A stretch of DNA of 37,245 bases, taken from the IMG/VR virus record IMGVR_UViG_3300031227_004974, positions 1 through 37,245 of that record, one strand, 5' to 3'. This DNA is from a virus. The notes beneath the pieces are model-generated. The model was not told the origin of the DNA. It made no database searches and was given only the letters and a program-made list of their open reading frames with translations. The stretch's first letter is position 1, and the number at the start of each line of letters is the position of its first letter. Positions 1,798-7,422 of the stretch are shown piece after piece. The position numbers and the translations under genes are program-made.

Positions 1798-1935
1798 ATG
1801 AGCGAAGTCAGCAAAACGTCGATCCAGGTCAGCAGGGAAACCAAGGAACGACTGGAAGCCCTGGGACTGAAGGGAGACACCTTTGACGGCATAGTCCGTC
1901 GGCTCCTGGACAAGCAATCGCGGAAGAGGAAATGA
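1798..1935 (+). CDS. Small ribbon-helix-helix/antitoxin-like protein, 45 aa
   Basis: A strong Shine-Dalgarno (AAAGGAGGTGA, 1784-1794) precedes the ATG. The protein begins with a beta-strand-like [18 protein letters not shown] and continues with a helix ending [13 protein letters not shown]. This is the pattern of VapB/DUF7557-like ribbon-helix-helix proteins, which bind DNA as dimers. The stop overlaps the methyltransferase start (ATGA at 1932), so the two are probably coupled. No toxin partner is visible, so a plain regulatory role is more likely than toxin-antitoxin. Confidence 0.7.
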
Positions 1936-3239
1936 AGACATACCAAGATAATCACGTCACTCAATACTGCGGGAATTTCCTAGATAACGACTTGCCCGAC
2001 GAGAGTGTGCAGATGGTGGTGACCTCGCCGCCTTACTGGGGATTGCGGAAATACGAGGGTGAGCAGGACTTGGTATGGGGGGATAATCATTGTGAGCATC
2101 AGTGGATAGAAGATAGTGTGTCAATGAATTATGTGCAGGGTGATCCTGAGTTTGCAAGACCCCATCGTGGGAAAAAGAACTTTACAGCCAGCCGGAGGCT
2201 CTGTTCTCTCTGTGGTGCTTGGAAGGGTGCTTACGGGTTAGAGCCGACACCAGAATTGTATTGTGACCATACTATCCAGATATTGAGAGAGATTCGGCGA
2301 GTGCTACGGAAGGATGGTGTGGTGTTCTGGAATATCGGGGATAGTTACGCTGCCAATAGGTCATATCAAGTAACTGATACTAAATGGCGTGATGTCGGGA
2401 ATACTAAGGGGAGCAAAGTCCCGCCCGGCCTCAAACCCAAAGACCTCTGCCTCATACCATTCAGGGTAGCGATAGCGGCACAATCCGATGGCTGGTGGGT
2501 GAGGTCTGACATTATCTGGAGTAAACCTAATCCGATGCCGGAGAGTGTAACCGACAGGCCGACTAACTCACACGAACACGTCCTGATGCTTACCAAATCA
2601 GCCAAGTATTACTGGGATGCTGATGCGGTGAGGATGGGGTATAAACAGTCAAGTATTGATAGGGCAGATGGTAGCCGGGTAACAACTTCTAACCCTGACA
2701 GGCCTGTTGGTTTTACCCGGGACCTGTCAGGTGGTGCTAACATCCGCTCAGTATGGGAGTTTCCTACACAGCCATATCCCGAAGCTCACTTTGCCGTATT
2801 TCCAGAGAAGCTACCCGAGACCTGTATTAAGGCAGCCACGCCGGAGGTAGGGTGTTGTAGTAAGTGCGGGGCGCCATGGGAGAGGGTGACAAAAGTCTCG
2901 AGATCTAATGAAAGTTACTGGGGTAAGCAGGGTAAAACCCCACAAGATGTTAAGTCTATCGGTAAGTACGGTGATGCTGTGGCTAGTGATGGCGATAGAA
3001 AACGAGCAGGATCCGATATCCGTTTAGGACCGACAGTTAGTGTTCAAACGTTAGGCTGGCAACCCACCTGCAAATGTAATGCTGATAAAGTGCCAAGTGT
3101 AGTCCTTGACCCGTTCTCCGGTAGCGGTACAACCTTATGGGTAGCCAAGAAACTAAACCGAAAGGCTATTGGTTTTGAGTTATTCGAGGAATACTGCGAG
3201 CTATCGGCTAAGAGAAACAAGCAGCAGGTAATGATTTAA
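1932..3239 (+). CDS. DNA methyltransferase, beta-class (N4-cytosine/N6-adenine)
   Basis: 435 residues. The catalytic motif [10 protein letters not shown] is at residues 31-38, and the SAM-binding motif [10 protein letters not shown] lies near the C-terminus (from Asp393), followed by [13 protein letters not shown]. Motif IV before motif I is the beta-class order. SPPY is commonest in N4-cytosine enzymes, but N6-adenine activity is also found. Between them lies a long target-recognition region with two Cys pairs (CSLCGAW near residue 90; [10 protein letters not shown], then TCKC near 320-380) that look zinc-binding. No restriction enzyme is next to it, so it is probably an orphan that protects phage DNA from host restriction (inference). 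Codons in the middle are visibly more AT-rich than in flanking genes, which suggests separate acquisition. Confidence 0.9.
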
Positions 3240-4140: not shown

Positions 4141-5241
4141 ATGACAAGCTCAGAACAAAAACAGCACGTTGATATACACAGGAAATTAAAACTCAGGCGT
4201 GACTTGATCGAGCGAGCCGGCCACCTCCGGGGCGCTGTCTACGTTCCCTTTATTGGTGAGGGAGATATAGCGGTAGAGCTATACACCGGAAAAAAAATCT
4301 TCGGCGCGGACATAAACCAGGACATGGTCGACAAGGCACAATCCCGGCTACCAGATGCTACGATCATCAAAGCCGACTGCGACCTATTCCCGTTTAATAA
4401 GAAGACAGCCACCTTCGCGGTCGCTGACCTCGACGCCTATAGCTACCCTTACGATTCCTTCCGAGCGTTCTGGAAGGGGGCTAGAATCGGCTCTCATTGC
4501 GCGGTTATCTTCACCGATGGCCAAAAACAGGCGATCAACCGGACTGGGCACTACAGAAGCCCGGACGGAGCTAAACACCACCTCACCAAATCGGCCGAAC
4601 GGCGAGCCGTCTATCACTTCTATTTTAACAGGACGTTGGTCCCCTGGTTTACTGAATATATCAAACCCTATAAGATACTTTACATAACGAAAAACAACAG
4701 GGGCCCGAATCAGCTGTACTGGGGAGCTGTCATATCGAAGACCGGGAAACCTGCCCCCAATAACAAAACAGCCGCCCCGGGTAACGCGCCGGGACCAGCT
4801 GCTAACACCGAAGCCCCCGACGCTATCAAACCTTACAAATTCGACGACATTAAAAAGGCTGAATACCTCGAGCATATCGCCAGTGGCCACACCCGAGGAC
4901 ACGCCGCGACGTTGGTCGGCATCAGCCGGGCGACAGTATGTGACCATGCGAAAGCAGACAAGGATTTTGCCGAGGCCATATCCTGCGCCGAGGGTGACGC
5001 CACCGGCAAGGTACAAAACGCTCTCCATGAAGCGGCCACCTCTGGCAATGTGACGGCCATCCAGGTATGGCTCTATAACCGGGATCCGAAACGATGGTCG
5101 GACAAACGGAATATACAACTGGCCGGCGAAGGCGGCGGCCCGATAAAGGTGGAACATGACGCCAGAGGACAGCTGCTTGCTGAGCTCGCTCGCCACGCTG
5201 CCAGAGTCGGAGCGGGAGAAGGTACTGGCCCGGCTGAGTGA
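4141..5241 (+). CDS. Methyltransferase-like/terminase small subunit fusion
   Basis: 366 residues in two parts. Residues about 1-200 look like a class I SAM-dependent methyltransferase: glycine loop VYVPFIGEGDIAVEL, acidic FGADINQD at the end of strand 2, and ADLDAYSYPY in the catalytic-loop position. A Pro/Ala/Asn-rich linker (about 200-228) follows. Residues about 230-366 match small terminase subunits: an HTH (HIASGHTRGHAATLVGISRA), KVQNALHEAA, and the characteristic WLYNRDPKRWSD. TerS recognises phage DNA and hands it to TerL. The gene overlaps the TerL start by 86 bases. The two halves are in one open frame with no internal stop. The TerS part is confident; activity of the methyltransferase part is uncertain. 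Confidence 0.8.
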   Translation: MTSSEQKQHVDIHRKLKLRRDLIERAGHLRGAVYVPFIGEGDIAVELYTGKKIFGADINQDMVDKAQSRLPDATIIKADCDLFPFNKKTATFAVADLDAYSYPYDSFRAFWKGARIGSHCAVIFTDGQKQAINRTGHYRSPDGAKHHLTKSAERRAVYHFYFNRTLVPWFTEYIKPYKILYITKNNRGPNQLYWGAVISKTGKPAPNNKTAAPGNAPGPAANTEAPDAIKPYKFDDIKKAEYLEHIASGHTRGHAATLVGISRATVCDHAKADKDFAEAISCAEGDATGKVQNALHEAATSGNVTAIQVWLYNRDPKRWSDKRNIQLAGEGGGPIKVEHDARGQLLAELARHAARVGAGEGTGPAE

Positions 5242-7246
5242 CGAGGTACTAGAGGAGCTTCTATATGACTGGCCATACCGGGCCCGGGACAAGCAGCTCC
5301 CGCCCCCCTGGGACTGGTATATCTGGCTAACGCTTTGCGGCCGGGGAGGCGGTAAGACTCGCACCGGCGCCGAATTGGTTAGCTCATGGGCAAAGGCAGG
5401 GTTTAGCCCGATCGCCTTGGTAGGCAAAACCAAGGCAGATGTCCGGGACACCATGATCGAGGTGGGCGAGTCGGCAATCCTTAACATCGGCAACCCTATA
5501 TTCCGGCCAGCTTATGAGCCATCTAAGAGGCGGCTGATCTGGCCGAATGGGGTGTTGGGTATAATCTACTCAGGAGACGAGCCAGATCAGCTCAGAGGCC
5601 CACAGCATGCCAAGGCATGGGTAGACGAGCTGGCCAAATTCAAATACCCGGAAGAGACCTGGAGCAACCTCATGCTTGGCCTCAGGATAGGCGAGAAACC
5701 CCAGGCCATTGTCACCACCACGCCGAGGCCGATTAAGGCCATCAAGGAGCTGGTGGCAGACGAGCGAACCGAGGATAATCCGGGCGGCAGGGTGGCGGTC
5801 ACCCGGGGACACACCTTAGAGAATAAAGCGAACCTGGCCCCCGACTTCTTGGGCTTTATCATCAAGAAATATCAGGGAACTAGGCTCGGCCAGCAAGAGC
5901 TTGAAGGTAAGATACTCGACGATAACCCTAACGCCCTTTGGAATAGGGCAGCGATCGAGAAACTCAGACTCACAAAACACCCGGAGCTGAAACGAATAGT
6001 CGTTGGGATAGATCCCGAGGCTACCGACACCGATACCAGCGCCGAAACTGGAATCATCGTCGCCGGCATGGCGGTGATCGACGGCCTGGAGCATGGCTAT
6101 ATTCTGGACGATCTAACTATCCGGGGAAGCCCTGGCGCCTGGGCCAAAGCCGCTATAACTGGCTACTATAAACACAAGGCCGACCGGATTATCGGAGAGG
6201 TCAATAACGGCGGCGATATGGTGGGCTTTACTATACGGACGGTCGACTCCAAGGTACCGTTTAAGGCAGTCCACGCTAGTCGAGGTAAGCAGACCCGGGC
6301 CGAGCCAGTGTCCGCCCTCTATGAGCAAGACCGAATACACCACGTCGGAACCTTCCCGGATCTGGAAGACCAGCTCTGTTTGACTGAGGGAACACTAGTA
6401 GCAACAGCAAATGGTGGAAAGCCTATAGAGACGCTGAAGGTTGGTGAGTTGGTTTGGACTCGCCGTGGGCTCAGACCAGTAGAAGGGTTAAGGTGTAATG
6501 GTTTTAAGGGCACCTTGCTATTGGGTTCCCGTTTAGGGTATAATATAAGGGCAACTGGCAATCACCCGTTCGCCAATCAGTGTGGAGATTGGATTGAAGC
6601 CAGTGAGTTAAGATTAGGAGATAAGGTATTATGCCTATCCCGATTAAACGCCCTTATGTTGAATTCGAGGGAATCAATTATTTCTTGGGGAATAGAGGCT
6701 ACTGGGAAGCAAGCCGTTCTCGCGGTCGGGGATTATTGCATAGAGCAGTGTGGGAATCGGCTAATGGGTCTATCGCAGGAGGTTGGGAAATACATCACAA
6801 GGATGGTGACCGAAGTAATAACCAGCTTTCAAACCTTGAACTTGTTACCAGAGAGATGCATTGTCAGTTCCACCCTCGCCAAGGCATTGCCAACCTCACC
6901 TTCGAGCAACGCAGTGAGCAGATGCGAGAGAATTGGAAGAAGCGCAATGGAGTTGAGATGGCCTGTCTTGAATGTGAGACAGTCTTTATTAGACGCTCAA
7001 CACACGGTAATTTCTGCTCCCGTAAATGTTATAAGCGATACCATCGTAAGCATCCAAAAAGCTGACCCAATTAGAGTCTGGGATTTACAGGTAGCCGCCG
7101 AGCATGAATATTTTGCGGGCGGCTTTTTGGTGCATAACTGCGAATGGGTGCCTGGCGATACTTCACCGGACAGGCTCGATGCCCTCGTCTGGGCGATAAC
7201 AGAGCTCATGCTGGAGGATCAGGGATTAGACTTTATGGTAGGGTGA
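5156..7246 (+). CDS. terL: Terminase large subunit with intein
   Basis: 696 residues before splicing, about 442 after. The N-terminal ATPase shows Walker A CGRGGGKT (residues 61-68), Walker B AWVDE (154-158) and coupling motif TTTPRP (187-192). The RNase H-like nuclease shows Asp286 (VGIDPEATD), Glu348 (GEVNNGGD) and, after the intein, SPDRLDALVWA with the third acidic residue. An intein (residues 408-661) interrupts the protein just before this last motif, between DLEDQL and CEWVPGD. TerL cuts concatemeric DNA and drives it into the prohead through the portal. The start overlaps the TerS gene in another frame. Splicing should be essential, because without it the third nuclease Asp is displaced by 254 residues. 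Confidence 0.92.
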   Translation: MTPEDSCLLSSLATLPESEREKVLARLSDEVLEELLYDWPYRARDKQLPPPWDWYIWLTLCGRGGGKTRTGAELVSSWAKAGFSPIALVGKTKADVRDTMIEVGESAILNIGNPIFRPAYEPSKRRLIWPNGVLGIIYSGDEPDQLRGPQHAKAWVDELAKFKYPEETWSNLMLGLRIGEKPQAIVTTTPRPIKAIKELVADERTEDNPGGRVAVTRGHTLENKANLAPDFLGFIIKKYQGTRLGQQELEGKILDDNPNALWNRAAIEKLRLTKHPELKRIVVGIDPEATDTDTSAETGIIVAGMAVIDGLEHGYILDDLTIRGSPGAWAKAAITGYYKHKADRIIGEVNNGGDMVGFTIRTVDSKVPFKAVHASRGKQTRAEPVSALYEQDRIHHVGTFPDLEDQLCLTEGTLVATANGGKPIETLKVGELVWTRRGLRPVEGLRCNGFKGTLLLGSRLGYNIRATGNHPFANQCGDWIEASELRLGDKVLCLSRLNALMLNSRESIISWGIEATGKQAVLAVGDYCIEQCGNRLMGLSQEVGKYITRMVTEVITSFQTLNLLPERCIVSSTLAKALPTSPSSNAVSRCERIGRSAMELRWPVLNVRQSLLDAQHTVISAPVNVISDTIVSIQKADPIRVWDLQVAAEHEYFAGGFLVHNCEWVPGDTSPDRLDALVWAITELMLEDQGLDFMVG
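6377..7138 (+). mobile_element. Intein in the large terminase
   Basis: Splicing block A starts at Cys408 (CLTEGTLVATANGGKPIETL). Block B contains TGNHPF with the conserved Thr467/His470. Block F is VWDLQVAAEHEYFAGG, and the C-terminal junction is LVHN followed by Cys662. Nucleophile Cys1, His-Asn and Cys+1 are all intact, so protein splicing is expected. The stretch between the Hint halves (about residues 492-637), where in-frame homing endonucleases usually sit, shows no recognisable domain in the intein frame. It is occupied by an HNH gene in another frame (6631-7065). Confidence 0.9.
6631..7065 (+). CDS. HNH homing endonuclease nested out of frame in intein
   Basis: 144 residues encoded in the -1 frame relative to the intein. 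It has its own ATG, an upstream AGGAG (6616-6620) and an in-frame TAA just before (6622-6624), so it is not an extension of the intein frame. It matches HNH_3-type endonucleases: LHRAVWE (His37), WEIHHKDGDRSNN (His55, His56) and LSNLELVTREMH (Asn68). A C-terminal treble-clef-like zinc motif follows (Cys112, Cys115, Cys129, Cys133). It fills the site between Hint blocks B and F where an endonuclease is normally fused. Expected job: cut intein-less terminase alleles and spread the element. Both frames stay open for about 145 codons. Confidence 0.88.
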   Translation: MPIPIKRPYVEFEGINYFLGNRGYWEASRSRGRGLLHRAVWESANGSIAGGWEIHHKDGDRSNNQLSNLELVTREMHCQFHPRQGIANLTFEQRSEQMRENWKKRNGVEMACLECETVFIRRSTHGNFCSRKCYKRYHRKHPKS

Positions 7247-7248
7247 AT

Positions 7249-7422
7249 ATGAAGATACTCATTGTGGGCAAGCCCCCGGTAGAGGTACCGAAGAATATCA
7301 AGCTATCGCCGACCATGCAGGTGAGAGTCGGGGGAGACAAGGCCATCCTCATGAATCGGAAAGAGAGACGCCGCCAAGGCCTATACGGCGACCGCGTTAC
7401 GATAACCCGGGTTAGGAGATAA
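7249..7422 (+). CDS. Hypothetical protein, 57 aa
   Basis: Short basic protein between terL and the portal gene. The ATG is 3 bases after the terL stop, in the coupled position. An open frame extends further upstream inside terL, but the terL end makes the internal ATG more likely. It has a hydrophobic start (MKILIVGKPPVEVP), a beta-strand-like centre and a Lys/Arg-rich C-terminus (NRKERRRQG, then TITRVRR), suggesting nucleic acid or capsid-surface contact. I recognise no family. Confidence 0.6.
   Translation: MKILIVGKPPVEVPKNIKLSPTMQVRVGGDKAILMNRKERRRQGLYGDRVTITRVRR

Follow-up and report, generated by a model that had tools for sequence, protein, structure and literature searches.

The terminase gene of the window and its intein

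The window, the whole stretch of DNA that was analyzed, is a virus record of 37,245 bases. Its gene for the terminase large subunit (TerL) is a single open reading frame (ORF) of 696 aa at 5156-7246, with Pfam matches to Terminase_6N and Terminase_6C. An insert lies within this ORF, and a further ORF is nested within the insert (Table 1). The ORF at 4141-5241 overlaps the start of terL by 86 nt; its N-terminus is methyltransferase-like (sub-threshold Pfam match) and its C-terminus corresponds to the terminase small subunit (phrog_309). A DNA methylase gene at 1932-3239 was examined for a hidden HNH gene because there is a large gap in its PHROG alignment. It was rejected as a host, since it contains no nested ORF and is an ordinary N6_N4_Mtase.

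Table 1. Positions of the terL exteins, the intein and the nested HNH gene in the window
Feature	Position	Strand	Basis
TerL N-extein (ATPase and most of the nuclease domain)	5156..6376	+	Terminase_6N, 93 bits; Terminase_6C, 39.9 bits
Predicted intein, 254 aa, TerL residues 408-661, between Leu and Cys of ...DLEDQL/CEWVPG	6377..7138	+	Intein_splicing, conserved residues, Foldseek, intein-free L011
Hint N-terminal half (blocks A and B, ending LRLGDKVL)	6377..6637	+	HMM match, pLDDT ~90-97
AGGAG, candidate ribosome-binding site for HNH, within Leu-Gly-Asp codons of the Hint motif	6616..6620	+	Sequence; SD enrichment
Predicted HNH endonuclease gene, 144 aa, -1 frame relative to TerL/intein; same DNA as the intein linker	6631..7065	+	HNH_3, I-HmuI, dN/dS
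HNH core H55-H56-x-D ... N64 ... N68 ... H77	6793..6861	+	(Nearly) invariant alignment columns; aligned to HKDGN...NL of 1U3E
HNH zinc finger C112, C115, C129, C133	6964..7029	+	Invariant cysteines
Hint C-terminal half (blocks F and G)	7013..7138	+	HMM match, pLDDT ~93-96
TerL C-extein (CEWVPGDTSPDRLDALVWAI...)	7139..7246	+	Co-linear with intein-free terminases L002-L009, L011

The insert scored 36.6 bits against Intein_splicing (Pfam cut-off 35.8), and Hint_2 and PT-HINT matched it too. Its ends are canonical, with C1 at the start and H253-N254 at the end, followed by Cys at position +1. C1, T60 and H63 (in TGNH), H253, and N254 were invariant across 20 aligned inteins, and the +1 residue was Cys, Ser or Thr at nearly all of the listed junctions. 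The insert continues the reading frame of the extein, and homologues that lack it align co-linearly with TerL. In the Foldseek search, the SspDnaB, NpuDnaB, gp41-1, and RecA mini-inteins were matched (best E 5e-9). These results bear out the original prediction that an intein with Hint blocks occupies 6377-7138 of terL. Judged by its Hint fold, catalytic residues and frame, the insert is an intein; protein splicing is inferred.

In the AlphaFold model of the intein frame, the Hint halves (residues 1-90 and ~220-254) were well folded (pLDDT ~90-97), and residues 96-211 of the overlap were disordered (pLDDT mostly <50). In textbook inteins, the endonuclease is either a fused domain or absent. 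The window intein does not qualify as a mini-intein, which has a short linker without an endonuclease, because its ~116 low-confidence linker residues contain the HNH gene. Nor does it have a fused in-frame endonuclease, since the HNH sits in the -1 frame. The criterion for a fractured gene, a host split into two ORFs, is unmet in the window and met in some relatives.

The HNH gene in the second frame and its relatives

The nested ORF is offset by 2 mod 3 from the TerL frame, which corresponds to -1. It matched HNH_3 with 59.4 bits (Pfam cut-off 24.8) and PHROG 15471, an HNH endonuclease (3.9e-23). Its ATG at 6631 stands 10 nt past the AGGAG, a TAA in the HNH frame lies upstream at 6622-6624, and a TGA at 7063-7065 ends it. 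Thus, the complete -1 HNH gene that had been predicted at 6631-7065, with its AGGAG, ATG, upstream stop and terminal stop, was correct in coordinates and features, and all the HNH and zinc residues ascribed to it are intact in the window. The 3′ part of the zinc finger (7013-7029) doubles as the start of the Hint C-terminal block.

AlphaFold gave a confident fold in the HNH frame (pLDDT 89.5). The best solved fold match was I-HmuI (PDB 1U3E; Foldseek E 1.9e-3, probability 0.99), which was also the only PDB profile match (E 7e-5). I-HmuI is an intron-encoded enzyme. The nested ORF resembles it as an HNH homing endonuclease. However, the relationship is distant (17% identity), I-HmuI is free or intron-encoded and does not overlap an intein, and the C-terminal zinc finger of the nested HNH lies outside the matched stretch. 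From its core and profile, the nested ORF is classified as an I-HmuI-like HNH homing endonuclease; cleavage of the element-free allele is inferred.

Homologues with the same two-frame arrangement, which the original prediction had called for, were found at no fewer than 207 loci, in at least 137 clusters. A TerL search of IMG/VR gave 22 loci, mostly intein-free; L001 and the distant L010 carry the same -1 nested HNH. The other scans each retained the best 80 matches, and since only these were kept, locus counts are not prevalences. Among the best 80 loci of the HNH profile search, the majority of HNHs were nested within Hint-bearing ORFs, and ~76 were nested among the best 80 of the intein profile search. 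A profile of Hint-N only, which is blind to the linker, gave 68 nested HNHs (all -1), 10 mini-inteins, one split intein, and one without a detectable C half among its best 80 loci; in none of these 80 was the HNH in frame. In a scan of genome contigs with a single protein query, one locus was found. Pooled, the scans contained at least 209 nested HNHs in at least 207 loci, which formed 159 clusters at 80% identity and 137 at 60% among the matches listed. The assembly error explanation was rejected, as the same frame relation holds in at least 207 loci.

Among the matches listed, the nested HNH was in the -1 frame in 135 of the 137 clusters at 60% identity and in the +1 frame in two, and no ORF in 207 loci had the HNH and Hint in the same frame. 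In-frame fusion alone in homologues would have refuted the original prediction, and no in-frame fusion was found among the matches listed; compensating indels, the other ground for refutation, cannot fit hundreds of contigs with the same arrangement. HNH lineages outside the profile used may be fused in frame. The HHxD..N..NL pattern was present in 122/137 clusters and the zinc cysteines in 135/137 (matches listed). The HNH stop fell within the Hint-C match in 156 of the 159 clusters (median 44 nt; matches listed). Thus, the zinc finger and the start of the Hint-C block are truly double coded.

The hosts among the matches listed were almost all terminase large subunits, and the insertions occupy several positions within the ATPase and the nuclease domain. 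Of the host families listed, one set comprised Terminase_6N (30/49) and Terminase_3 (15/49), and another Terminase_6N (28/59), Terminase_3 (21/59), and GpA (3/59). Carriers among named phages include Acinetobacter phage Highwayman, Tetrasphaera phage TJE1, and Rhodobacteraceae phage LS06, in which the gene is annotated only as terminase. When the endonuclease lies in a second frame, gene finders report just a terminase with a meaningless insert. One of the loci found is an Opitutae MAG contig (L199). Two terminase ORFs (L029:1418-4435 and L046:1165-4398) contain a pair of inteins apiece, and every one of these has a nested HNH of its own in the -1 frame.

Since the same double use occurs in more than 100 distinct phage inteins, it represents a widespread, largely unannotated mobile element and not a sequencing slip. 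As far as sequences can tell, phage terminase inteins of this group usually have the nested arrangement. The original prediction set it apart from usual inteins, with fused or missing endonucleases; it is not a one-off.

Two loci differ in layout. In L244:1106-5179, both types occur within a single ORF: an intein region of the classical kind with LAGLIDADG in frame, and an intein with an HNH nested out of frame. In L035:1530-2241, an HNH gene of the same family also sits between the two Hint halves of a terminase intein, but it is antisense to that intein, which is encoded on the other strand.

Selection in the two frames

In synonymous shuffles of the 137 clusters (matches listed), 316 host-frame stops were expected and none was observed; ~19 genes were expected to be open. 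Because the definition of nested demands an open host frame, independent controls matter. In free-standing HNH relatives, the corresponding frame had 3-15 stops each in 12 sequences from IMG/VR and 1-12 each in seven from phages, and it was open in 0/19. The HNHs of split inteins had 5-19 stops in this frame, and none was open. By contrast, 68 of the 69 HNH-bearing inteins in the Hint-N scan (best 80) were open in the host frame.

The preference for -1 is explained by codon composition, which gives ~3 expected host-frame stops in -1 against 18 in +1. In the two +1 clusters (loci L057, L078, L080, L086, and L082), ~12 stops were expected and none was observed. These clusters are the most striking, being the strongest single cases of dual-frame selection. 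For the window alone, the chance of an open intein frame had been put at 0.1%, from (61/64)^145. This was the wrong null, as it ignores HNH coding: the intein frame stayed open in 5% of synonymous shuffles with the window's own codons (0.1% with uniform codons). Therefore, the window by itself is modest evidence, and the homologues are decisive.

Selection was also compared in both frames, as the original prediction had proposed. In close pairs, dN/dS was 0.08-0.27 in the HNH frame and 0.06-0.26 in Hint-N; when the overlap was read in the intein frame, it was 0.5-3.1. Overlapping genes bias the NG86 method, since a change that is synonymous for HNH falls on a second codon position of the intein. 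Thus, values of 0.5-3.1 mean that constraint is absent, not that selection is positive. The linker is preserved as an open frame in the intein, with no sign of a selected amino-acid sequence. The claim that the space between blocks B and F is meaningless in the intein frame agrees with these values and with the low pLDDT, except at the start of Hint-C, where the zinc finger shares the DNA. A conserved intein-frame domain in the linker was rejected: the similarity looks like a shadow of the HNH motif, pLDDT is low, and purifying selection is absent. More than 100 natural dual-coding genes are thereby available in which selection on the two frames can be separated.

These data bear on whether the nested ORF is a dead remnant, that is, an HNH formerly active or fused in frame, with the two frames a product of chance or indels. 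Shortened HNH remnants do occur in some relatives (L227, L242, L246, and L269). However, the HNH and zinc residues are intact in the window and in most clusters, and dN/dS of the HNH gene between the window and L001 is 0.14. Furthermore, the same frame relation is found in 137 clusters, and an in-frame ancestor was not found among the matches listed. We consider such a remnant very improbable.

Inferred expression and homing, and known systems

A start codon close to the Hint-N end was present in 135/137 clusters (matches listed). A core Shine-Dalgarno (SD) sequence preceded 31 of 135 nested starts (23%) against 247 of 2893 control internal start codons (8.5%; p 7e-7); in the window, it is supplied by codons of the Hint motif LxxGDxV. 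Slippery -1 heptamers were not enriched by nested starts (0.70 vs 1.25 per kb). Because start codons are present, the SD is enriched and slippery sites are not, internal initiation is most likely, and the HNH is most likely made from an internal start. Since a strong SD precedes just 23% of the nested starts, initiation at many of them has to be weak or rely on other signals. The separate HNH product is inferred, with no protein-level evidence.

Alternatively, the HNH might be reached by -1 ribosomal frameshifting from the TerL/intein frame, as a TerL-HintN-HNH fusion, and the -1 frame in 135/137 of the clusters listed would suit this. However, that preference follows from codon composition, two clusters use +1, and the heptamer counts give no support. 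In the window, moreover, the HNH-frame stop at 6622-6624 is 6 nt before the ATG, which leaves almost no room for a shift, and no slippery heptamer is present there. Little probability thus remains for frameshifting.

We are fairly confident that the element is a mobile intein of phages and that a separate HNH gene, out of frame in the intein DNA, supplies its homing endonuclease. Its anatomy, recurrence, frame-specific selection and intein-free alleles are observed; splicing, translation, cleavage specificity and homing are inferred. The TerL mRNA would be translated straight through, intein included, and the two Hint halves would fold together around the floppy linker, excise the intein and restore TerL. 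On the same mRNA, ribosomes may initiate internally at the ATG at 6631 by means of the AGGAG in the LxxGDxV codons, and the product would be a free I-HmuI-like HNH enzyme. This enzyme would cut terL genes that lack the intein, close to the point of insertion, and the intein and the HNH gene would be copied into them during repair. Selection maintains the HNH sequence, which would serve homing, and excludes stops from the intein frame, which would serve TerL. The proposal that one DNA stretch serves as intein linker and independent endonuclease gene is supported, with abundant homologues, although a separate HNH protein is unproven.

An intein-free allele at the same site, L011, has an uninterrupted junction and 86% DNA identity over the flanks. 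Between the window and L001, both intein-bearing, DNA identity was ~90% over 6951-7199 and ~69% over the N-extein. The tract of high identity spans the end of the HNH gene, Hint-C and the start of the C-extein. It is possibly a co-conversion tract, although local constraint could also account for it.

If the HNH were instead a free-standing nuclease for phage fitness, for example in packaging, its location in an intein would be incidental. Free-standing relatives do adjoin terminase genes in several phages, and HNH proteins aiding terminases are noted in PMC11855218. Nevertheless, many close terminase relatives lack both the intein and the nested HNH, terminase sites still hold mini-inteins that have no HNH, and the best fold match is a homing enzyme, so that we see hardly any likelihood of this. 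A group I intron carrying an HNH gene, with the host frame open by coincidence, has nothing in its favor except that the nearest solved relative is intron-encoded, and it is practically ruled out by the absence of any Rfam match (E up to 5) over 6200-7300, the host frame open throughout, and the full Hint domain with its splicing residues.

The mobile intein with an out-of-frame endonuclease gene has partial precedents. Mycobacteriophage TerL inteins (Kelley et al. 2016, PMC5050341) likewise have Hint in TerL at conserved motifs and the endonuclease between the Hint halves. There, however, the endonuclease is fused in the same polypeptide, whereas in the window it is in another frame; the passages of that paper on HNH and frame describe no out-of-frame endonuclease. 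The nearest precedent is the hidden HNH of the ShiLan domain, without an intein. The ShiLan domain and the Pacc40 insertion in phage methylases contain a hidden out-of-frame HNH, and their patchy distribution suggests homing (Arsenault, Gosselin, Gogarten 2025, PMC11855218). As in the window, the host frame runs open through the insertion, and the HNH is encoded in a different one. No Hint or intron splicing element was found in them, and the insert is proposed to stay in the protein (PMC11855218), whereas the window HNH gene is enclosed by a full Hint domain and has a Shine-Dalgarno sequence.

In text searches of the literature, no out-of-frame endonuclease within a Hint intein came up. Reference 7 of PMC11855218 is a 2025 preprint on actinophage inteins (Gosselin et al.), whose title speaks of 'Non-Canonical Architecture'; it may or may not overlap with the present arrangement. 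The nested inteins yield HNH enzymes that are candidates for site-specific cutting, and Hint domains in which a long unstructured linker is tolerated. They also argue for inspecting every 'degenerate' intein in its other frames.

In L227, L242, L246, and L269-L271, the linker is shorter and matches HNH only in part, and these inteins are apparently decaying toward mini-inteins; mini-inteins and HNH remnants occur in the same Hint lineage. In split inteins, Hint-N ends one ORF, Hint-C is on a separate ORF, and an HNH of the same family lies between the halves (L034, L037, L041, L047, L074, L089, L096, L102, L105, and L113). L113 is Lactobacillus phage CL2, in which the C-terminal TerL piece (L113:2490-2774) is unannotated. 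The intein-free alleles, mini-inteins, remnants and split forms fit a homing life cycle; homing is inferred.

Fractured genes, in which split inteins have a free-standing endonuclease gene between the halves, were reportedly described by Dassa et al. in 2009. The split relatives likewise have a separate endonuclease gene between N- and C-intein, whereas the window TerL remains one ORF that the endonuclease overlaps. Nesting is a plausible source for split inteins. We suggest, tentatively and with real doubt remaining, that nesting is standard for HNH-driven phage terminase inteins, that one DNA yields both the splicing element and the endonuclease, that the two frames constrain each other, and that loss of the open frame leads to a split intein with a free endonuclease, a route to fractured genes.

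In the tree of nested, free and split HNHs, 57 of 104 branches were weak and the states intermixed with 13 changes, and the direction could not be read. In Mantel tests, HNH distances were weakly correlated with those of Hint (rho 0.19) and of the extein (0.23). Thus, the HNH-Hint pair is not strictly co-inherited over long times. Free-standing HNH relatives directly adjoin terminase genes in L108 (Acinetobacter phage BP10), L111 (Pseudomonas phage PAE1), L112, and L114-L116.
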